A stretch of DNA of 43,395 nt from a virus. The stretch lies in IMG/VR virus record IMGVR_UViG_3300044499_000059, positions 1-43,395 of that record; one strand, 5' to 3'. The notes under the pieces are model-generated. The model was given only the letters and a program-made list of their open reading frames with translations, was not told the DNA's origin and searched no databases. The position numbers were made by a program, and so were the translations under genes. Positions 1,928-40,434 of the stretch are shown one piece after another; position 1 is the stretch's first letter; the number at the start of each line of letters is the position of its first letter.

Positions 1928-3685
1928 TTAGGCGGCTTTCTTCGTGATTTGAGGGATGATCCACGTGTCTTTGTTCTTGCCGCAGCCTTTGGTTTTTCCA
2001 AGCACGCTTTCAATATGCTTGAAGACTTCTTTTCGACTTGCATCGGTGACCTCCATGTTATGAGCCTCGAGATACAGCTTGGCGACTCCCCACAGTCCGG
2101 CGCAGCGCTTGCGCGAGCCGTCCGGGTAGGAGACGAACCACGGTTTGCCGCTTGGCACGTGGACGATCTTGAACGACCCATATTCCGCCGGCGCGTCTTC
2201 GGTAGGCTTATTGACGACGGCCTTCGCGCGTTTCGGTGAAGCGCTCTCGCTCTCGCCAGACTTTGCAATGTCGGCAACCAATCCCTCGATCTTCGCGTCC
2301 GCGGTCTGGATTTTATAGACATGGCGCATGGCGACGATCAGCGGCGACGCCGGCGACTTGACGGCGATATCGAACCACGAAGCGCTGATGAATTTATTGA
2401 ACCACCAGCCGTTGTTGTGGGCTTGATTGATGACGACGTTCAGCGCGTCGACGACAGCCGACAAGCTTTCTTTCGTCCTGAGCCGGGCGAACTGAACGGT
2501 CGCGTTCCAGAGATCGGCGGTCGCGTCGGCGCAGCTTCCCCATTTCTTGCCGCCGAATCCGGGACTCCATTTCTTGTTGTAAAACTTCTCGCGGGTTTCG
2601 TTGAACCGTTTAACCTGGCTGGCGACGTCGGCCCAGGCCTTTTCATAGACCTGATGCCGCGCCAGGCCGCTGTGTTCTTTATGCCGCGCTTCCCCGAAGC
2701 ACGCAGCGAAGCCGAGCTTCAAGGCGAGCATGACGGCCGCGCCGAACAGCCGGCTGTCATCCTTATCGAAGCCCACCGAGTTATGGAGCGCGCCGAGAAC
2801 GATCAGCACGGCGCTTTCATAATCGATCGGCAGCGTGACGCCGATCGCGAGACCTTTGAGGACGCTCTCGATATCCTTTTCCGGCTTGGCAAAGGGAATC
2901 GCTTCCAGGATCTCGCCCACGGCCGGGACTTTGCCTTGCGTGATGATCGGAATGTCGTGTTCCACGCAGTGGACGGCGTAGTGGGACGACATGGTGCCGC
3001 CGTGATGTACGACGACGGTGCCGGGCTTGAACTTCGAGCACGCTTCCTGCCATTCCAGTAAATCGCCCTTAGCATGCACCACGTGCTGGACCTTGATCTT
3101 CTTGGGAAAGAAATTCGGTCCGAGGCAGCCCACCTTGGGACCGCCGCGAAGCTGCACGAGATAGAGAGTCTCACGCTTGCTGCCGTTGACCGGATCGCGT
3201 CCGACGAATTCCAGGTACGGCGCCGCGCCGGGCTTCACGCCGGCGGCCGCGGCGACGGCGTGCGCGTCGATGAGGGGAACGGTTTCGGTCGTGTGGACCG
3301 ACACGCTTTTGTGGCCGTTGGTCGCGCCGTCGTTTCCTGGACCAACGGAGAGCAGCCCGGGAGTCCAGATCGAGCTGAAATCCGCCTTGATGTACGGCAT
3401 CAGGAGAAGCTCGGCCTGGGGGTCCACCTTCTGCGCCTGGCGGAATAATTTCATCGCGGCTGCTTTGTCTTTGACCGGGCGGGAGTCCACGAAGCCGTGC
3501 TGCGGTGTGACCGGACACGGCCGCGCGAAGAGTTCTTCCTGGATGTAAAATAGCGGGTCGTTGATATCGCCCGCGCTGCCGATCAGTTTGAACGGCAGCG
3601 TCTGCACTCTGCCAGCGAACATGAATTGGTCCTGGTGCGCTTTAAGGGCCTCCAGACCTTTTGCCTTCTGCGTTCTTGGTTCCAT
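1928..3685 (-). CDS. PEP-synthase/PPDK-like protein with phosphohistidine (swivelling) domain
   Basis: A 585-aa protein; the start at ATG 3685 was chosen because it follows CGAAGGAAGGAAACAGCA. Residues 221-249 (GTVVVHHGGTMSSHYAV onwards, then DIPIIT) match the mobile-domain signature of PEP-utilising enzymes (GG-x-T-SH-x-A), with His235 in the place of the phosphorylated His. Upstream, LYLVQLRGGP (174-183) resembles the end of the PEP synthase ATP-binding part (lyivQaRP). The order ATP-grasp-like region then His domain fits the PEP synthase/rifampicin phosphotransferase superfamily, but the ATP-grasp part is weakly conserved. The C-terminal 330 residues are not the PEP-binding barrel and are unrecognised. 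Phosphotransfer to a small molecule or protein is a hypothesis. Confidence 0.6.
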   Translation of the reverse strand: MEPRTQKAKGLEALKAHQDQFMFAGRVQTLPFKLIGSAGDINDPLFYIQEELFARPCPVTPQHGFVDSRPVKDKAAAMKLFRQAQKVDPQAELLLMPYIKADFSSIWTPGLLSVGPGNDGATNGHKSVSVHTTETVPLIDAHAVAAAAGVKPGAAPYLEFVGRDPVNGSKRETLYLVQLRGGPKVGCLGPNFFPKKIKVQHVVHAKGDLLEWQEACSKFKPGTVVVHHGGTMSSHYAVHCVEHDIPIITQGKVPAVGEILEAIPFAKPEKDIESVLKGLAIGVTLPIDYESAVLIVLGALHNSVGFDKDDSRLFGAAVMLALKLGFAACFGEARHKEHSGLARHQVYEKAWADVASQVKRFNETREKFYNKKWSPGFGGKKWGSCADATADLWNATVQFARLRTKESLSAVVDALNVVINQAHNNGWWFNKFISASWFDIAVKSPASPLIVAMRHVYKIQTADAKIEGLVADIAKSGESESASPKRAKAVVNKPTEDAPAEYGSFKIVHVPSGKPWFVSYPDGSRKRCAGLWGVAKLYLEAHNMEVTDASRKEVFKHIESVLGKTKGCGKNKDTWIIPQITKKAA

Positions 3686-5370: not shown

Positions 5371-6030
5371 TTATAGTGGGAGTTCACCGGTTCCTGCTGG
5401 GGTCTTGTCTTCTGCTAGGGCTTGCTTGCCGCCGTTCTTTTTGCCGAGCTTGCGGTTATCGATCGACCCAGCTTTGAAGCGCTCGACGTTCTGGTAGGTC
5501 AGGCGGAGCTCATCGGCGCGGACTTTGTAGATGTCCTTGAATTTGTCGGTCTTGTTTTCGATCATGCTGGAGACCTTGTTGAAAAACTCCCATCCTCTGC
5601 CCTTCTGCTTGCCTTTGAGCGTGTGCTTGTCCAGCGCATAATCCGGGACTTCAAGCTTGAGTCCCTTCTGGGCGCGTTCCTGGAGGACCACGGTCAGGAA
5701 GTTGTCGGCGAGGCGGCTCTTCTCGGCTCGGCACATGGCGAGGATGGCGTTGGAGAGACAGAGGAGCTCGCTGGCCTGGCCGGGGCGCGCGATCATGTCC
5801 ATGTACTGCTGCTTGAGCGAATGGACCAGGACGATGACTTCCGGGGCCGCGGGTCCAATGTCTTCGTTGACGATGACTTCGAGGCGGTGCCACAGGTATT
5901 GGGGATAACCGTTCTCCAATTCCAGGGCCCAGTACATGGCGGCTTCTTCGTTCCCCCGGCGGATCTCCTTCTGTAGGGCCGAGATGGCTTCCGACAAGTG
6001 GTAACCGTGATCCTTGGTCAATAGGTTCAT
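5371..6030 (-). CDS. Standalone RarA/MgsA C-terminal-domain-like protein
   Basis: A 219-aa protein from ATG 6030 (ribosome site AGAAAGGAATTGACCCT). Residues 8-60 (YHLSEAISALQKEIRRGNEE, AAMYWALELE, LWHRLEVIVNEDIG) match the start of the C-terminal tetramerisation domain of the RarA/MgsA/WRIP1 clamp-loader-like ATPases. There the motif reads hYdliSAlhKs.RGsdpdAAlYWlar and is followed by a conserved sEDIG. The AAA+ ATPase module is absent, and no other gene in the window supplies it. The last 50 residues are basic and probably disordered. It may bind host RarA, SSB or fork DNA. Family assignment is by motif recognition; the role is inferred. Confidence 0.65.
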   Translation of the reverse strand: MNLLTKDHGYHLSEAISALQKEIRRGNEEAAMYWALELENGYPQYLWHRLEVIVNEDIGPAAPEVIVLVHSLKQQYMDMIARPGQASELLCLSNAILAMCRAEKSRLADNFLTVVLQERAQKGLKLEVPDYALDKHTLKGKQKGRGWEFFNKVSSMIENKTDKFKDIYKVRADELRLTYQNVERFKAGSIDNRKLGKKNGGKQALAEDKTPAGTGELPL

Positions 6031-7137: not shown

Positions 7138-7336
7138 AAGGAATGTGTCTGTTTTTACAGGCGCGCTTGTAGTGCTCGCCTCCGAACGAGCTAAACCAGC
7201 CCGCTAAAGGCAGCACGCCATAGATCACCCGCCATCGATCGCCATAGGCCAGACGAAAGCCGAACCACTGAAGCAATACCGTGTTCACCCAGCCGACCCA
7301 GGTTAGCCCCCAGAACTTTTTTGTCGGATTCTTCAC
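7136..7336 (-). CDS. Small membrane-associated protein (66 aa)
   Basis: It starts with GTG 7336 inside a GTGA overlap with the glycosyltransferase-like gene. The sequence is rich in Trp, Phe and Gly, with hydrophobic stretches (GWVNTVLLQWFGFRLAYG, VIYGVLPLAGWF). It ends in a basic Lys/Arg/His tail. One or two membrane passes are likely. Its role is unknown; coupling to the glycosyltransferases suggests it belongs to the same module. Confidence 0.6.
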   Translation of the reverse strand: MKNPTKKFWGLTWVGWVNTVLLQWFGFRLAYGDRWRVIYGVLPLAGWFSSFGGEHYKRACKNRHIP

Positions 7337-8073
7337 ATCGAGAGTTTCTGCCGGCGCGTAACATCACTGATGACTGTGCGGGTTACGCCGCCAGAGGTTT
7401 GCTCCTTCACGTAGCACCCCCACTTGCGCTTGAGATACTTCTGATCGGCGGCCCATTTCTCCGTGGTTATGAAATGGCGGTTGCCGCCGCTGTTCGTCAT
7501 GATCTTGTGCTCGAAACAAAAACGGGTGTCCTGCCAGACGATGCGGTATTTGAGCAGCGCCTGCAGTGCCATGTCGGCGTCGGTGGAATGGTTGAGATGA
7601 GGATCGGGATAGATGCGCCGGCCGACAAAGCCGAGAACGGGACCGAACGCTTTCAGAAACGCGAACGGGTCGTAAGGGAAAAAACTCAAGATATTGGCGG
7701 TGACGGCGTAGCCGAAAAGCGGCGCTCCGATCTCCTTGGCGATCGCCGCCGAATTCCGGAGCACGCGCAGGACGGCCGCGGGGTCCATGATGTTCCTTGG
7801 CCGGCGCCCGACCAGGCAGACCAGGCGCGATACGTCGTCATCGAAGGTGACCACGCATTCTTCGTCGTAGTGATCGAGAATCCAGGTACGGATCGCGGCC
7901 ATGCCGGTCACTTCATCCGGGTGGGTGGTCAGGCGCTTGCCAAACTCGGCGTAATCCCCCTTCTCGCTCTCGGCCACGCAGACGTCTGCAGATGGGACCA
8001 GCGCCGCGGCCACCCGGCAGCTCTCCAAGCGCTTTCGGCTGGGGATCACGATGCGGAGATCCTTTTCCGTCAC
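7333..8073 (-). CDS. Glycosyltransferase-like protein, TET-associated (TAGT) type, copy 2
   Basis: A 246-aa paralogue of the gene upstream. The start at GTG 8073 was chosen because it sits in a GTGA overlap with that gene and aligns the N-terminus (TEKDLRIVIPSRKR) with the paralogue (TAKDLQVVIPSRRR). Shared features: IPSRxR at residues 10-15, THPDEVTG, the run TWILDHYDE, an acidic DDD (78-80) in the place of a GT-A metal-binding DxD, GRRPRNIMDP, DADMALQALLK, WQDTRFCFEHK, and KRKWG near the C-terminus. TAGT enzymes are known from phages that glycosylate oxidised pyrimidines. The assignment is by motif recollection, and the target here is unproven. Confidence 0.65.
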   Translation of the reverse strand: MTEKDLRIVIPSRKRLESCRVAAALVPSADVCVAESEKGDYAEFGKRLTTHPDEVTGMAAIRTWILDHYDEECVVTFDDDVSRLVCLVGRRPRNIMDPAAVLRVLRNSAAIAKEIGAPLFGYAVTANILSFFPYDPFAFLKAFGPVLGFVGRRIYPDPHLNHSTDADMALQALLKYRIVWQDTRFCFEHKIMTNSGGNRHFITTEKWAADQKYLKRKWGCYVKEQTSGGVTRTVISDVTRRQKLSM

Positions 8074-8813
8074 AACAATAGGTCCTGGTGCCTTTCGACC
8101 TTCACTTTGAGCGAGATGGTTTCCTTCGAGTAGCCCACGCCCAGGTAGGGCCCCCATTTCCGCTTCATGTATTGCAGCTCGCGATTGGTGTTCTCCAGTC
8201 CGCGCGAGATCGTGTTGCCGCCGCCTTTGGTGATGAAGTTGTGTTCGGCGGCGAAACGCGAGTCCTGCCAGCAGAAGCGCTCCTTGAGGCAGCACTCGAG
8301 AGACAGATCCACGTCGTCGAACTGCGCCACCTTGGGATCGTAGCGCAGCTTGCGATCGATGATGCCGAGCATGGCGCCCTCGAGGCGCGTCAAGCTGAAG
8401 GGCTTTTGCGGCCGGAACTTGCGCACATCGTCTTGAAAGGGCGAAAAGGAAAAGCAGCTAACGCCGAGATCGGCGCAGATGTTGGCGCTGTTGAGAATGA
8501 TCCGCTCGATCGCTTCCGGATCCACAATCTTGCGCGGCCGAAAGCCGACCACGCAGTAGAGGCTCCGCACGTCGTCATTGCACTGGAAGACCAGGCGCTG
8601 CTTGAAATGGTCCAGTATCCACTGGCGCAGCGGCCCCAGCCCGACGATATCGTTCGGATGCGTCATCACCAGCGCGCCCACGTCCTTGTAATCTCCGGCT
8701 TCTTCCTCGGCGATACACACGATCGGGTTTTTGAAAAGCCGCACGGTCCACGTGCAGCTCTCCACGCGCCGGCGGCTTGGGATGACAACCTGCAGATCCT
8801 TCGCGGTGATCAC
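8070..8813 (-). CDS. Glycosyltransferase-like protein, TET-associated (TAGT) type, copy 1
   Basis: A 247-aa protein starting at GTG 8813 in a GTGA overlap with the ParB-like gene. Motifs: VVIPSRRRVES (9-19), THPNDIVG, QWILDHFKQ, the acidic NDD (79-81) for metal/nucleotide-sugar binding, GFRPRKIVDPE, DDVDLSLECCLKERFCWQDS, and KRKWGPYLGVG. It is co-linear with copy 2 over its whole length, pointing to a tandem duplication followed by divergence. The two may transfer successive sugars or act on different bases. No TET/JBP-type 2-oxoglutarate dioxygenase is visible in the window, so the hydroxylated base must come from elsewhere or the target differs. Confidence 0.65.
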   Translation of the reverse strand: MITAKDLQVVIPSRRRVESCTWTVRLFKNPIVCIAEEEAGDYKDVGALVMTHPNDIVGLGPLRQWILDHFKQRLVFQCNDDVRSLYCVVGFRPRKIVDPEAIERIILNSANICADLGVSCFSFSPFQDDVRKFRPQKPFSLTRLEGAMLGIIDRKLRYDPKVAQFDDVDLSLECCLKERFCWQDSRFAAEHNFITKGGGNTISRGLENTNRELQYMKRKWGPYLGVGYSKETISLKVKVERHQDLLL

Positions 8814-9481
8814 TTCTTCTTCTCGGTTTGGATTTTCTTGACGTAACCGCCGCCGTCGACGACGCGGCCGAGACCGATGGTCTTCTTGCCGACGTATCCG
8901 GGCACCTTCATTTTCTGGAGGCCGAAGTGATCGGCCGCGGCGAGAAAGTCGCGGCTGTCTTTGAAGAACAGAACGATATAGTCGTAATGCTCGTAGGGCA
9001 GGAGCTCCATTTCCGGCGGGCCAATCCCCTCTTCCAGGTCCGGCTCCTCTTCTTCCATCCCACCGCGCAGTGGGAGATCCACTTCCTGGGTCAGCGGCGC
9101 CATGTCTAATTCGTCGTATAGGTCGGGCATCCCCTGCTCGATCTCGCGCAGCAGGGCGGCGAGTCCCACATCATCCCACTTCCCGCCGACGTTCGGATTG
9201 TTGAGCGTAATGTTGAGGGCCTTCTCTTTGTCCGGCGGCAGATCGACGATCACGCAGGGTGCGCTCTTCTCGCCATCGGCCTTGAGAATGTCGAGGCGAG
9301 TATGGCCCGCAACGAGATTGCCGGTCCGTTTGTTCCAAACCGGAAGCTCCACCAGACTGAATTCGTGGATCGAGTTTTTGATCGTCTGATATTCGTGATC
9401 GGCGGGAGTCAAGCGCTGGCGCGGGTTATAGGGCGCAGGATTGATCTTCGAGAATGGGATCTCCTGGATGATAGGCTTCAT
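8810..9481 (-). CDS. ParB-like nuclease/sulfiredoxin-fold domain protein
   Basis: A 223-aa protein; ATG 9481 follows AAGGAG at good spacing. Residues 6-95 form a ParB N-terminal-type domain: IPFSKINPAPYNPRQ, then SLVELPVWN and LVAGHTRLDILKA, the equivalent of the family G(x)HR motif. The C-terminus is acidic (MEEEEPDLEEG) and then basic. Phage single-domain ParB-like proteins often sit beside DNA-modification genes, and here it heads an operon with two glycosyltransferase-like genes. It is unlikely to be a partition protein because no ParA is present. A perfect inverted repeat lies directly upstream. Confidence 0.8.
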   Translation of the reverse strand: MKPIIQEIPFSKINPAPYNPRQRLTPADHEYQTIKNSIHEFSLVELPVWNKRTGNLVAGHTRLDILKADGEKSAPCVIVDLPPDKEKALNITLNNPNVGGKWDDVGLAALLREIEQGMPDLYDELDMAPLTQEVDLPLRGGMEEEEPDLEEGIGPPEMELLPYEHYDYIVLFFKDSRDFLAAADHFGLQKMKVPGYVGKKTIGLGRVVDGGGYVKKIQTEKKK

Positions 9482-9492
9482 CAAGTCGGCTC

Positions 9493-31095: not shown

Positions 31096-31467
31096 TTACG
31101 GCGATTGCGGGAGTTTGTCAACTCCTTTTTTGCGCTCGGGGCTGAGACGGACGTAAAAGCGAACGGCGGCGATCATCCCTTGCTCGAACAAAAGGGTCAC
31201 CCGGCCGTTTTTTTTCTGCGCCATGATCCAGCGCACTTTGCGCATGGCGAACAGCGCGGATCGCTGGGGCGCAAACGCTCCGACCTCGTGCCCGGGCGAA
31301 CAATTCTCGCAGTTCTCACTGACCTCCACGCTGGCAAGCGCGCCCTGGGAAAAATGGAGATCGATCTGGCCGTTCTTCTTCTCCTCGCGGAAATCGCGGA
31401 CGCAGAATTCAGTCTCCTCCGAGAGGAGTTCCAGAAAACCCGTGCCGTTCCCGTCTTCGCAGCTCAT
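31096..31467 (-). CDS. Hypothetical 123-aa protein with internal duplication
   Basis: ATG 31467 overlaps the portal stop (ATGA). Two similar segments, KKNGQIDLHFSQGALASVEV (about residues 30-50) and KKNGRVTLLFEQGMIAAVRF (about 84-104), each resemble the beta hairpin of DUF2292/YezD-type proteins (yGsitl.iqdGkvv.ie). A Cys cluster lies between them (NCENCSPGH). It may be two RNA- or protein-binding hairpins. Role in head assembly is unknown. Confidence 0.6.
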   Translation of the reverse strand: MSCEDGNGTGFLELLSEETEFCVRDFREEKKNGQIDLHFSQGALASVEVSENCENCSPGHEVGAFAPQRSALFAMRKVRWIMAQKKNGRVTLLFEQGMIAAVRFYVRLSPERKKGVDKLPQSP

Positions 31468-33773
31468 TTCTTAAAGCGCAACCTCATCGAACAACGGCAC
31501 TGGGGATGCGCCGTCGGATGCTGGACGCTGCGGCCGTCGCCCGTGGTAAACGGTTCCTCGAGGCCACGCTGTTGACCGTCCATGGGCTCGCAGACGTTCA
31601 GGTCGAGACGGTCATCGTCGGTCACCAGCCACTCGCGCACCGTCTTATCCGGATTGAGGTAGCCGGCGTCCTTCGCTTCGAGCCAGAGCGTTTGTTGCCC
31701 GCCGTTGGAAGCGTTGAGAGTTTCAGTCCTAGCGATATTGAGCGATCGCTGGCGCTCCAGCGCCTTGGCGTACTTGGCCACGCGGTCCTCGATGTTCGAC
31801 GCCTCTTCTTCGATCAACTTCTTCTGAAACGCGGCCAGGGCCTTTTCCTGCTGCTTGGTCAGACCGATCTGGAGGTTTCTGAGATCCCGGGCCGCCTGCT
31901 CCGGTGGGCGCCCCTCGATGATGGCGCGCTCGATCGCCTGCACGATGGCGGCGCGGGTCTGCTCGGTCACGTTTGTGACTAGCTGGGCCCCGTTACGCCG
32001 GATCCACGACACGGCCCGGATATTGGTCAGATCGAAGGATACCGGGAGCCCGGTCTCTTTCGCCAGAACCTTCGCAGCGTACTCCCCGGCGAGCGTCAAG
32101 GTCTGCTTCAAGACCTTGTCCGACTTCTCGCCGAACTGGGCTTCAAAATCGGCGAGGGGAATCTTGGAAAGCACCACCGAGGCGGACCGGGTCTCGAAAG
32201 CCGCGACGATCTCAGAGATCGACATCTTTTTCTTCGCGCTATTGACGGCGAACAAAAACGCCTTGCGCATCTCCGGCTGCATCCGGCGCGCGATCCTCTG
32301 GATCATCACCAGGGCTTCGATCTCCCCGGCCTTGAGACCCTTCTCTTGGAGGCGGCGGCGCGTGATCGATTCCTCGACGGCGCCGGTATCCTCCGTCGTG
32401 TCGTCGGTTTCATCGCCGACATCCGGAATCTCAAGTTCGGGAAGAAGAAACGTATCGGCTTCCTGGAGCGGTACCGGATTGAGTCCGAAGGGCATCATGA
32501 AGACTTTGCCCTGATCGTTGGGGAGCGCCTCCTCATCGCGCAGCGCGCGCCATTCATCGATCATCGTCGACCACGGCGCCGCGGTGGCCACCTTGAGGTT
32601 GAACTCTTTGTCTTCCTGGACCGGCGAGACGTAATCCAGAATCAAGCGCTCGTCGAAATCCGGAACGAACCGCTCCTGCATGGTGGCCCGGAGAAACTCC
32701 AGCCGCGGGACCAGCGTCCAGCGCGCGAAGAGATAGCCCGCGCTGTCGATCGTCGCGCGGTTGGAATTTTCGATGACGCCGAAGATCTCGGGCGGGACGC
32801 CCGGGACCTGCATCACGGTATCGCGCACGTGCTTGCGCAGTTCCATGAGTTGCAGATGCTCAAAATTCTGCGCGATGACGTCGACCTTCACTTCGCCGGA
32901 AATAAAGTAAGGCTTGAATACGCGCCAGAAGCCTTGGAGCTTACTCAGCCAGTCCTGCTCGAGGCGCTTGGTCTCGGTCTCGCGCAGTCCTTTGCCGGAG
33001 ACGATGATGTCCGGCCGCGCGCGGTTGTAGAAGAACGCCTTCATGTGCTTGGCCGCGTACTCATCGGTTTCGAGCTCGTCGGCGAGAGACTTGGCCACGC
33101 CGACGCCGCGGCCGTAGGGATTGGACGGGTCCGGATGGATGAACCATACGATTTCGCTGGTAGGAATGTTTCCCTGCCAGCCCATAAATTTCACGTCGAA
33201 GAAGGGTTTCGATGGCGTAGGCGTGGCCAACACCCAATGCGGCGGCAAGGGCCACAGGCCGATCGGCATACCGAACTCGTTTCGCTCCTTGATCCAGTAG
33301 GCTTCGCCGACGAGTTCGAGATAAATCTGGGTCAAACGTTTGGTCGTAAGCCCGAGCACGAAGGAATTGGAGGCCTCCATGACCTGGGGCAGCGGGTGGT
33401 CGACCACCTCTTCGAGCTGGCGGTCTTTTTGGAGGCGCTTGAAGATTCGCTGGCGGGTATCGAAATCGGCGCGCTGGAGATCTCGCCGCCACTTTACCTC
33501 GCCGGCGTCGGACCTGACCACGAAGACCTTCCATTCGACGCAGGCGATGCTCGAGGCGATCTTGCCGACCACGGCATTGACCCAGGGCATGTCGGCATAG
33601 CTCTTGATGAGTTCGGCGATCCCTCGAGGCGGTGGCGACCCCGGACCGCCTGGGAAAAGGCCGGCATAAACGCCGAGGATGTCCTGGGGAGTCGGTTGCT
33701 TGAAAAGGCCGCGGAGCGCGCGGCCGGCGACGCGAACGCGATCGCCGAGACTGATTTGCATAGTGCCTTCCAT
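31464..33773 (-). CDS. Portal protein fused to MuF-type minor head protein
   Basis: A 769-aa protein; ATG 33773 follows CACGGAGGACGCTG. Residues 30-430 are an HK97-type portal: PWVNAVVGKIASSIACVEWK, ANSFVLGLTTKRL, GNIPTSEIVWFIHPDPSNPY, and KHVRDTVMQVPGVPPEIFG. Residues 600-769 are a MuF/SPP1 gp7 domain: ARDLRNLQIGL, RSLNIARTETLNASNGGQ, EWLVTDDDRLDLNVCEPMDG and PQCRCSMRLRF. Portal and MuF are usually separate genes, so this is a fusion. The portal is the DNA gate, and the MuF part is ejected or stabilises packaging. Confidence 0.92.
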   Translation of the reverse strand: MEGTMQISLGDRVRVAGRALRGLFKQPTPQDILGVYAGLFPGGPGSPPPRGIAELIKSYADMPWVNAVVGKIASSIACVEWKVFVVRSDAGEVKWRRDLQRADFDTRQRIFKRLQKDRQLEEVVDHPLPQVMEASNSFVLGLTTKRLTQIYLELVGEAYWIKERNEFGMPIGLWPLPPHWVLATPTPSKPFFDVKFMGWQGNIPTSEIVWFIHPDPSNPYGRGVGVAKSLADELETDEYAAKHMKAFFYNRARPDIIVSGKGLRETETKRLEQDWLSKLQGFWRVFKPYFISGEVKVDVIAQNFEHLQLMELRKHVRDTVMQVPGVPPEIFGVIENSNRATIDSAGYLFARWTLVPRLEFLRATMQERFVPDFDERLILDYVSPVQEDKEFNLKVATAAPWSTMIDEWRALRDEEALPNDQGKVFMMPFGLNPVPLQEADTFLLPELEIPDVGDETDDTTEDTGAVEESITRRRLQEKGLKAGEIEALVMIQRIARRMQPEMRKAFLFAVNSAKKKMSISEIVAAFETRSASVVLSKIPLADFEAQFGEKSDKVLKQTLTLAGEYAAKVLAKETGLPVSFDLTNIRAVSWIRRNGAQLVTNVTEQTRAAIVQAIERAIIEGRPPEQAARDLRNLQIGLTKQQEKALAAFQKKLIEEEASNIEDRVAKYAKALERQRSLNIARTETLNASNGGQQTLWLEAKDAGYLNPDKTVREWLVTDDDRLDLNVCEPMDGQQRGLEEPFTTGDGRSVQHPTAHPQCRCSMRLRFKK

Positions 33774-33905
33774 CAGCGTCCTCCGTGGAAAGTAAGATTG
33801 GGACACGCTGTCATAGCGTTGGCATCATACATGATTTCGTAGCGAGTTCAAAAAAGAAACATTGCTAGGAAACGAAAGCGTTTTTTGATAATATTTCCGG
33901 TCGTT

Positions 33906-35491: not shown

Positions 35492-36211
35492 CTACAGTTT
35501 CTCCGTCAGGCCGCATAGCTTGCACCACACGCGCAGCGGGGGCGGCGTCATATTGAGGTTAAGATCATTGAGCTCACAAACTTGGAGAGGCGCACCGTCT
35601 TCAGGGCAGTCGATGACATGCTTCGTGAAGTATTGCCGCCGCAGTTCACTTCTTTCACGCTCAGTAAGCGATCCAGGAGTTGGAAGTTTCCTCTCCGGGC
35701 TACGGGTCTTCTCTTTGGGAGGCTCCGGTTCACCGAAAATCCGAACGAGATTGCGACCCCTGTTCTTGGCGTCGTAAAGAGCGACATCGGCGCACCGAAT
35801 GATCCCGGCAGAATCCATTGCATGGTCAGGGTAGGTACCTACCCCGAGGCTCGCGGTAACGTTGACGCCGGCAATTGGACCGGCCTCGATCTGTCGCCGG
35901 ACGCGTTCAGCCACGGCGACGGCTTCCTCTGCGGTGTGGTTAGGGAGCATCATAAGAATCTCTTCGCCGCCGTACCTGTAAACCTTTCCTTTCCCCGCAG
36001 CGACGGAGTCGATGCATGCTCCGACTGCCGACAACACAGCATCTCCCGTCTGATGGCCATGCGTGTCGTTGACACGTTTAAAGTGGTCAAGATCGATCAT
36101 AACCACGCTGAAAGGACGCTTGTCGGTCGCGGCATGAGAAAGACTTACCGGAAGCTCGGCGTCAAGATTTCCACGTGTCCAGAGCCCAGTGAGCACATCG
36201 CGATCTGCCAT
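35492..36211 (-). CDS. Standalone GGDEF-domain protein with C-terminal zinc-binding-like tail
   Basis: A 239-aa protein; ATG 36211 follows AGAAGGGCTCTATTC. Signature: DVLTGLWTRGNLD (5-17), metal-binding VVMIDLDHFKRVNDTHGHQTGD (in two parts around Asp40-Asp42), and the active loop YRYGGEEI with GGEE at 81-84. ADVALYDAKNRGRN follows (141-154). Catalytic residues for diguanylate cyclase are present. The inhibitory I-site (RxxD before GGEEF) is absent. No membrane or sensor domain exists. Residues 200-233 carry four Cys (DCPEDG, VCEL, WCKLC). A phage-encoded cyclase or other nucleotide signal enzyme is plausible. Confidence 0.85.
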   Translation of the reverse strand: MADRDVLTGLWTRGNLDAELPVSLSHAATDKRPFSVVMIDLDHFKRVNDTHGHQTGDAVLSAVGACIDSVAAGKGKVYRYGGEEILMMLPNHTAEEAVAVAERVRRQIEAGPIAGVNVTASLGVGTYPDHAMDSAGIIRCADVALYDAKNRGRNLVRIFGEPEPPKEKTRSPERKLPTPGSLTERERSELRRQYFTKHVIDCPEDGAPLQVCELNDLNLNMTPPPLRVWCKLCGLTEKL

Positions 36212-39122: not shown

Positions 39123-39668
39123 TCAGTCTCCATAGCTCCTGCAGGTTTCACACAAACACCCGGGACAGCCGGAGGCCTCGCCCCACCATTCCGGGCATTC
39201 GTCCCACTGCTCGGTGGCGAGCAGCACGCTGCGCGCCGGCACGTCGAAGAACCGTTGCCATCCCTTCCAGAAGAACGGCTCCTTGAAGCGCACCGCATCC
39301 GGACACTCCCAGGCGAAGCGCCCAGGTCGATAATCGCCGAAATGTTCCTCGTGCGGGCGTCCGGCGAGAATCTTTTCCTTGACCCCATTGAGGAGGATAT
39401 GGGTCTTCGACAGATTGACGGCGCCGAGGACGTGGCCGCGGCGGATCGACCAGAGAGGGTCGTCTTTGAGCGCGGTCTCGAACGGCTCTTGCTTGGCCAG
39501 CTTTAAAGCTTCGGGCGGAAGACGTTGCGCCGCATGGATCAACAAAACGCCGCGGTGACTCGTGTCAAAGCTCCGGGTCTCGAAGCGCTTTCGATATTCG
39601 GTCGAGAGCAGCATCAACGACGCCCAGGGCTGCCAAAGGGAGATCGCTTTGACGACTTGGTCAGCCAT
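39123..39668 (-). CDS. ASCH-domain protein
   Basis: A 181-aa protein; ATG 39668 follows AGGAGGGCCTCCG. The ASCH signature is VVKAISLWQPWASLM (residues 5-19), with FETRSFDTSHRGVLLIHAAQ next. RGHVLGAVNLSKTHILL and GRFAWECPDAVRF follow, the typical 'G.vla..l' and 'gryaW.l.d...l' parts. ASCH domains are RNA/nucleic-acid-binding folds related to PUA, and some hydrolyse modified nucleosides (N4-acetylcytidine). A C-terminal Cys set (SGCPGCLCETCRSYGD) is extra. The substrate is unknown. Confidence 0.88.
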   Translation of the reverse strand: MADQVVKAISLWQPWASLMLLSTEYRKRFETRSFDTSHRGVLLIHAAQRLPPEALKLAKQEPFETALKDDPLWSIRRGHVLGAVNLSKTHILLNGVKEKILAGRPHEEHFGDYRPGRFAWECPDAVRFKEPFFWKGWQRFFDVPARSVLLATEQWDECPEWWGEASGCPGCLCETCRSYGD

Positions 39669-40434
39669 CGGAGGCCCTCCTGCTCGATGCCAAGCTGTCA
39701 GTGGACAACGCGCCGCTCCTGATGATCTTCATTCCGTGTTTATCGACCTGATGATCCTCTAGCTGGAAATTGTTATTGAAGGTAAGGCCGCAAGTTGAGC
39801 AGAACGGCTCTCCCGCCTTACCTCCATGGTAAGCGAGCTTCTGGCGCGGAGTGAATTTCTTTTTGCCGGCGCCCTGGACTTTTTCCCTCTCGTCGCCCTT
39901 GAATTTTTCCGGGTGCGCCGATCGCTCGTGTCTTCCTTTGCCAGCGGCCTTCTTGAACCGGCGCTCGCAGTAATCGCAGGGATACGGCCATTGCTCCGGC
40001 TTCACCGCGGACGTTCGCTTTCGCTCGGCCGCCGCCTTGCCCTTTCGCCGCGCCTTAGCGATCTTCGATTTGTCAGGATGCTTATACCGGGAATGCGCTG
40101 CCGCGGCGAAGCGGTTGTCGAAGGATTCTCCGCAACCGTACTTGCACGGATACTTCCGTTGCGGCTTCGCCGATCGTTTGGCAGCTTTAATTTTCCTTGT
40201 CCGCTTCGGACCGGCGCGTTTCCGGTATTTCCTCTTTGGCCGCTCTTCAACAGCCGACGACAATGAAGCAACACCAGCGGCCGGCGCCAGCGCTCTCAAT
40301 TCCTCCGGGATGTCCCGGACGAGACCCCGCAATATGAGAGACTCGCCGCCCTCGATGTCTATTCTGAAACCATCGTCGCTGAAGATGGCCAGAATCTCTT
40401 TTGTCTCGATCTCATAAAGAGTGACTTTTCTCAT
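39661..40434 (-). CDS. Protein with three C2H2 zinc fingers
   Basis: A 257-aa protein from ATG 40434. Three eukaryote-like fingers are visible: YPCKYGCGESF...H-x4-H (Cys97, Cys101, His114, His119), YPCDYCERRF...H-x4-H (153, 156, 169, 174) and FCSTCGLTFN...H-x4-H (212, 215, 228, 233). Residues 65-95 and the linkers are Lys/Arg-rich. The N-terminal 50 residues form a separate small domain (VTLYEIETKEILAIF). Multi-finger C2H2 proteins are rare in phages; bacterial Ros/MucR proteins have one finger. DNA binding is very likely; the target is unknown. Confidence 0.8.
   Translation of the reverse strand: MRKVTLYEIETKEILAIFSDDGFRIDIEGGESLILRGLVRDIPEELRALAPAAGVASLSSAVEERPKRKYRKRAGPKRTRKIKAAKRSAKPQRKYPCKYGCGESFDNRFAAAAHSRYKHPDKSKIAKARRKGKAAAERKRTSAVKPEQWPYPCDYCERRFKKAAGKGRHERSAHPEKFKGDEREKVQGAGKKKFTPRQKLAYHGGKAGEPFCSTCGLTFNNNFQLEDHQVDKHGMKIIRSGALSTDSLASSRRASDG

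Follow-up and report, generated by a model that had tools for sequence, protein, structure and literature searches.

The virus record examined here, analysed at its full length of 43,395 bases (hereafter the window), encodes a compact fusion protein, P0001, which is probably a self-contained dikinase-type phosphotransferase with a mechanism like that of rifampin phosphotransferase (RPH), in which a helical domain, named X, would act as the acceptor domain and the neighbouring gene product, P0002, as a dedicated phosphatase. The donor, X and the phosphatase recur together as a conserved module: about 40 records of cultured phages, about 70 IMG/VR loci and Acidobacteriota PRTRC operons contain it. 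With this module recognized, culturable phages (of Vibrio and Stenotrophomonas) offer an enzyme system that is defined and can be tested, at the centre of which lies a confidently modelled helical domain without a matched fold.

Gene layout in the window

The window is a whole virus record in which portal, capsid, protease and tail genes are present, and the P0001/P0002 pair is therefore phage-encoded. Both ORFs are present as described in an earlier reading made from the letters alone (the sequence-only reading): P0002 begins 19 nt downstream of P0001, and a strong Shine-Dalgarno-like sequence precedes each of them (GGAAGGAAA ahead of the ATG of P0001; Table 1). That reading had recognized the ATP-grasp/His half of P0001, which stands, and had overlooked the separate conserved domain X that follows it. 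At the C-terminus of P0001, a small domain is preceded by a low-confidence linker in the model and, according to the alignment, is kept in some relatives, not in all.

Table 1. Positions of the module genes and of the P0001 domains in the window, and of the fully split module in two other loci
Feature	Position	Strand	Basis
P0001, compact ATP-grasp/phosphohistidine/X fusion, 585 aa	1928..3685	minus	ATG at 3685; AlphaFold model, alignment
P0002, Cys-dependent DSP/PTP-type phosphatase, 184 aa	1354..1908	minus	ATG at 1908; profiles, motifs
Predicted ATP-grasp domain, P0001 residues ~1-190	3116..3685	minus	VIA-align of model to RPH and PPDK; invariant columns
Predicted swivelling phosphohistidine domain, P0001 residues ~195-265	2891..3103	minus	Model-to-PPDK/RPH alignment
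His235 codon, predicted phospho-accepting histidine, start of helix 235-242	2981..2983	minus	Invariant 10/10; DSSP of model
X domain, P0001 residues ~272-476, all helical	2258..2872	minus	hhalign E 8.5e-12; invariant residues; weak phrog_20946 match
Small C-terminal beta-beta-beta-alpha-alpha domain, P0001 residues ~503-565	1991..2179	minus	Model; alignment
Fully split module	L102:4742-9414; L103:449-5121		

Elsewhere in the window, all on the minus strand, are two overlapping TET-associated-glycosyltransferase (TAGT)-like ORFs with a ParB-like ORF (7333-9484), which are possible DNA modification genes; a phage-encoded GGDEF (diguanylate cyclase) domain protein (35492-36211; Pfam E 4.9e-39); a phage protein with C2H2-type zinc finger matches (39661-40434); an MgsA C-terminal domain standing alone, without the AAA+ part (5371-6030; Pfam E 7e-11); and one ORF with both portal and head-morphogenesis (MuF-like) PHROG matches, likely a fusion (31464-33806).

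Predicted ATP-grasp and swivelling phosphohistidine domains of P0001

The P0001 family was assembled stepwise, starting from a Manatee Spring phage protein, followed by six IMG/VR loci (L017-L022) and then by three bacterial loci (L023-L025). An exact-pattern search of viral contigs with P0001 as a single sequence gave no match, and a two-sequence alignment was required as the query to find its relatives there. In the resulting alignment of ten sequences, the relatives are 29-35% identical to P0001, and K7 (within TQKAKG), R55, E92, E159, Q178, R180 and H235 are invariant. The sequence-only reading had pointed to LYLVQLRGGP followed by GGTMSSH with His235, and both motifs are found at these places; they are not chance resemblances, because His235 is present in 10/10 aligned sequences as well as in the Manatee Spring phage protein, and because of the predicted fold of residues 1-264. 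None of the homologues examined lacks His235, the loss of which in relatives the sequence-only reading had named as grounds for rejecting its view.

The AlphaFold2 model of P0001, built on the ten-sequence alignment (pLDDT 77, pTM 0.74), was compared with known structures by VIA-align. RPH (Z 13.4, 232 residues, rmsd 3.5 Å) and PPDK (Z 13.3, 233 residues) rank first, and the best other ATP-grasp protein reaches Z 10.9. Model residues 1-264, comprising the ATP-grasp and His domains together, align to PPDK 6-500 and RPH 6-860. The region around His235, where an unlike fold would also have counted against the sequence-only reading, is predicted to be a swivelling domain with the catalytic His at the start of a helix (DSSP of the model). 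The ATP-grasp domain preceding it is unusually short. The PEP/pyruvate barrel is absent from P0001 according to Pfam, the alignment and the model, and no RPH-type rifampin-binding domain lies between the ATP-grasp and His domains; instead, the His domain comes directly after the ATP-grasp domain and is followed by X. At the level of the model, P0001 is confirmed as an ATP-grasp and swivelling phosphohistidine protein without a PEP barrel, in keeping with the resemblance to PEP synthase and RPH noticed earlier.

Curated profiles gave a different picture. The search with PPDK and PEP synthase families that had been recommended came out negative, as neither PPDK_N (PF01326) nor PEP-utilizers (PF00391) matched P0001 in Pfam or NCBIfam, and nothing useful came from searching P0001 by sequence against Pfam, NCBIfam and the PDB. 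The profile of the whole fused protein was not significant against phage PPDKs by hhalign, and a BFVD fold search gave no significant match. When residues 1-268 were compared with 75 phage PPDK-type proteins, the two best local matches were the His motif and the E...LQ.R motif, recovered in order, though weakly (P 0.023 and 0.054, hhalign). Because the curated profiles miss P0001 and these motif matches are weak, sequence profiles alone are insufficient to show kinship with PPDK or RPH, and we place P0001 with PPDK, PEP synthase and RPH as a fold-level relative and assign it to no curated family.

The X domain

The part of P0001 assigned to X has a homologue in a phage protein of about 330 aa that stands alone (hhalign over residues 322-432). 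The motifs E.RH, GG..W and HNNG..FNK lie in one helical domain, and E332, R334, G378-G379, W382, H423, N424, G426 and K431 (P0001 numbering) are invariant. One histidine is invariant in both the fused and the standalone forms, namely His423 in P0001 and His212 in A6, in the context HN..G..NK. A model of standalone X from 61 sequences (pLDDT 93, pTM 0.88) comprises a helical domain and a C-terminal beta hairpin. Its comparison with the PDB gave only noise-level helical matches (best Foldseek E 0.63, best VIA-align Z 4.0), with no relative among the matches listed; in these searches the model of X was thus matched to no known fold, and this absence of a match is not proof of a new one.

X-like domains also occur in giant phage proteins without a detected donor (L101, L104 and L105); X may therefore itself be active. 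The giant X-like proteins are located at L101:8-6316, L104:3285-7841 and L105:6470-9481, and in the jumbo phage LR756511 at 419161-422894; read by eye, the L104 protein contains, in addition, a region resembling a nucleotidyltransferase and possibly a HAD-like motif.

The Cys phosphatase

The sequence-only reading of P0002 as a phosphatase with a WPD loop and a CX5R motif was borne out. The WPD aspartate is D93, CX5R runs from C123 to R129, and an AIE..Q..Y motif is present. Pfam matches above the cut-offs were obtained to PTP-SAK (3.2e-7), Tc-R-P and Y_phosphatase, and P0002 matches PHROG 17568 at 8e-14. Using tblastn, the window phosphatase finds 24 of 50,697 phage records, every one of which carries the module. 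In GenBank and PHROGs, some Cys phosphatases of the module go under the name 'thymidylate synthase', among them SIO-2 VPEG_00063 (L011:10521-10997), DLP3_141 (L014:10590-11366) and PHROG 17568; the module proteins under this label carry the CX5R loop and match phosphatase profiles.

A conserved module of donor, X and phosphatase

X was found in 40 of 50,697 phage records (INPHARED), and a PPDK-type ATP-grasp+His gene accompanies it in 39 of them, the 40th being a 5.8-kb fragment of phage VHS1. Donor, X and phosphatase lie within a few kb of one another in 70/80 IMG/VR X loci; the remaining ten comprise seven truncated by contig ends (six with X and phosphatase on a contig cut before the expected place of the donor, and one 4-kb fragment) and three in which X is inside giant proteins. 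The phosphatase is close downstream of the fused kinase gene in 12/12 fused loci, with one small ORF between them in L021. The kinase-phosphatase pairing proposed by the sequence-only reading is upheld by this linkage and by the confinement of window phosphatase matches to module-bearing phages. Its remark that phage genomes seldom carry either gene puts the frequency of the module too low: the module is found in about 40 phage GenBank records, and the pair is not rare.

Three architectures of the module were observed: a PPDK-type ATP-grasp+His donor with a separate X; a fusion of X to a compact donor, the form found in the window; and a fully split form (L102 and L103), in which ATP-grasp, His domain, X and phosphatase are all separate. 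In the split form the phosphohistidine domain is a free-standing protein of 105 aa (PF00391, 84 bits) and the ATP-grasp is encoded by an ORF of its own (PF01326, 73 bits); the X and phosphatase of L102 are confirmed by tblastn as relatives of the cultured-phage versions. In the phages inspected, the donor gene is followed by small ORFs, the phosphatase and X, in many cases by a second phosphatase, and then by genes toward the DNA polymerase. The best evidence that donor, X and phosphatase act together is that X and the phosphatase stay the same when the type of donor paired with them differs.

The fused kinase-X gene and the phosphatase also occur among PRTRC operon genes in three Acidobacteriota genomes (L024, L025 and L114), with ThiF, PRTRC_E, PRTRC_F-like and small ubiquitin-like ORFs as neighbours. 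The fused family is rare in this phylum, being found in 2/297 sampled genomes. A search of the plasmid collection gave no match. Apart from the phosphatase, it was chiefly the members of close pairs of fused loci that shared neighbours, with one ligase pair in addition. P0001, P0002 and the X proteins matched no PADLOC defence model at E up to 0.01, and a weak DpdG match (1e-3) appeared in one split donor only. Each part of the module belongs to, or resembles, a known class. In the open-access literature, to which the search was confined, we found no description of a kinase-X-phosphatase phage module, nor of the compact donor-X fusion, of a phosphatase subfamily confined to module phages, or of the three parts as a mobile unit.

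Phage genes labelled pyruvate phosphate dikinase

The existing labels of the module's parts include 'pyruvate phosphate dikinase', 'hypothetical protein' and 'tyrosine phosphatase', and in some cases 'thymidylate synthase'. The dikinase label has led to published claims on phage manipulation of glycolysis, which the domain content does not support. One study assigned a TIM barrel to residues 524-691 of the vB_VneS_J26 donor, took the protein for a PPDK with a part in carbon metabolism, and reported a DALI Z of 45.7 for ORF98 of this phage (PMC12038007); the 'PPDK' of Vibrio phage Virtus was given a similar metabolic reading (PMC9229204). According to these studies, the donor would be an auxiliary metabolic gene, a pyruvate-phosphate dikinase boosting host carbon metabolism. 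The reported DALI score speaks for this, as do the split phage relatives, which carry the PPDK signature and align with PPDK structures from residue 1 to residue 579 (E to 7e-187). However, their PDB matches end at query residue 579-588, they match TIGR01828 (PPDK equivalog) only at positions 2-531 of 865 with 466-583 bits in full-length proteins, which is below its cut-off of 843 bits, and Pfam found PPDK_N and PEP-utilizers in them but not the C-terminal PEP/pyruvate barrel family. The PPDK barrel has about 340 residues, and 160-190 residues are too few to hold one. In addition, P0001 is without any barrel-like region, and the donor gene travels with X and the phosphatase. Because the barrel is missing, the published carbon-metabolism claims are unsupported for the split relatives, and the metabolic reading is extremely improbable. 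Phage 'PPDK' genes that have been termed auxiliary metabolic genes and are without the C-terminal PEP/pyruvate barrel include L005:7586-9649 and L010:7986-10061, among others.

Proposed mechanism and alternative readings

For the RPH-like phosphotransferase, we infer catalysis and the order of transfer as follows. The ATP-grasp domain (residues 1-190) would phosphorylate His235 using ATP, and the swivelling domain (195-265) would carry the phosphoryl group to an acceptor held by X (272-476). X may fill the position that the PEP/pyruvate barrel has in PPDK and the rifampin-binding domain has in RPH. P0002 could act in the same pathway, most likely stripping phosphate from the product or an intermediate. 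The combination of an ATP-grasp domain and a swivelling His domain with an interchangeable acceptor domain has precedent in RPH and HpeHI (PMC4844700, PMC12167813). What counts against the dikinase reading is that the relation of the ATP-grasp/His part to PPDK is weak when judged by sequence without the fold, and that X is also found in giant phage proteins in which no donor was detected. The neighbour genes in 30 module-bearing virus records gave no clear hint of the substrate, with TAGT in 0/30 and the RNA_ligase family in 3/30.

The phosphoryl group could also remain on protein, passing from His235 to a residue of X (e.g. the invariant His423) in the manner of Enzyme I and HPr, so that phospho-X regulates or signals and the phosphatase resets a downstream target. 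The single X histidine that is invariant across fused and standalone forms is consistent with such a phosphorelay, and so is the separation of donor and X into two proteins in most phages, as in Enzyme I and HPr. However, the invariant polar set (E332, R334, K431 and N424) together with the W/GG motif resembles a binding or active site more closely than it does a carrier, and X occurs in giant proteins without a donor; Cys phosphatases are not generally the enzymes that dephosphorylate phosphohistidine. A phosphorelay is unlikely on this evidence. The module might alternatively serve DNA hypermodification by phosphorylating a modified base, a DNA-linked sugar, or an intermediate toward either. 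In DLP3, one of the phages with the split module, the DNA was resistant to 15 restriction enzymes, and the authors of that study suggest modified DNA (PMC7326821), which together with the TAGT-like and ParB-like ORFs of the window favours this idea; but the restriction behaviour comes from one phage and may have other causes, TAGT is missing from all 30 module-bearing records, and the TAGT/ParB genes of the window were not found near the module elsewhere, so that we regard hypermodification as distinctly unlikely.

Nucleic-acid end processing or RNA repair, with RNA or DNA ends phosphorylated by the kinase half and with the phosphatase acting on RNA, as some DSP-fold enzymes do, seems very unlikely. 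A T4 Rnl1-type ligase lies directly before the module in L022, KxDG-motif ligase-like ORFs lie 1-6 kb from it in L017 and L023, and in split phages the module adjoins the DNA polymerase gene. Nevertheless, the RNA_ligase family is limited to the three records mentioned above, no relatives of the L022, L017 and L023 ligases occur near the module in other fused loci, and DNA polymerase and terminase form the backbone of the split phages, so their proximity may be inherited. A broader proposal would make X a previously undescribed fold and an enzyme or acceptor domain, and would make donor, X and phosphatase a mobile reversible-phosphorylation system, common to unrelated phages and PRTRC elements, that acts on nucleic acid, a DNA-linked group or a host macromolecule; we put it forward as tentative and rather doubtful.

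Comparison with known systems

RPH (e.g. of Listeria monocytogenes, PDB 5HV1-5HV3 and 5HV6) is the best structural match to P0001 and likewise combines an ATP-grasp domain, a swivelling His domain and a dedicated non-PEP acceptor domain in a single chain. The domain order differs, being ATP-grasp, rifampin-binding and His in RPH and ATP-grasp, His and X in P0001. The ATP-grasp domain has about 190 residues in P0001 compared with about 310 in RPH, and X showed no sequence or fold match to the rifampin-binding domain in the searches made. PPDK and PEP synthase share the order of ATP-grasp then His with P0001, and the split phage relatives retain the nucleotide-binding and His domains of PPDK; on the other hand, P0001 and the split relatives are without the PEP/pyruvate barrel and have X and a Cys phosphatase instead.

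P0002 resembles the PTP-SAK and Tc-R-P DSP-PTPase families (PF22784 and PF22785), whose cut-offs it passes, and the PHROG 17568 family that it matches. It is unlike them in that its tblastn relatives in sequenced phages are confined to genomes with donor and X. In plants, alpha-glucan water dikinase, which has a phosphohistidine domain, shares a pathway with a SEX4-type dual-specificity phosphatase. This is a comparable pairing of a phosphohistidine dikinase with a DSP-type phosphatase, but no carbohydrate-binding domain or glucan link was found in the module, and the two systems are not homologous as a whole.

The two-component dikinases HpeHI, CreHI and PpsAB (PMC12167813) are alike in that parts split over several proteins still transfer phosphate to a small hydroxyl compound. 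In these dikinases the His domain travels with the acceptor domain, whereas in most of the phages studied here it travels with the ATP-grasp domain, and in L102 all the parts are separate.
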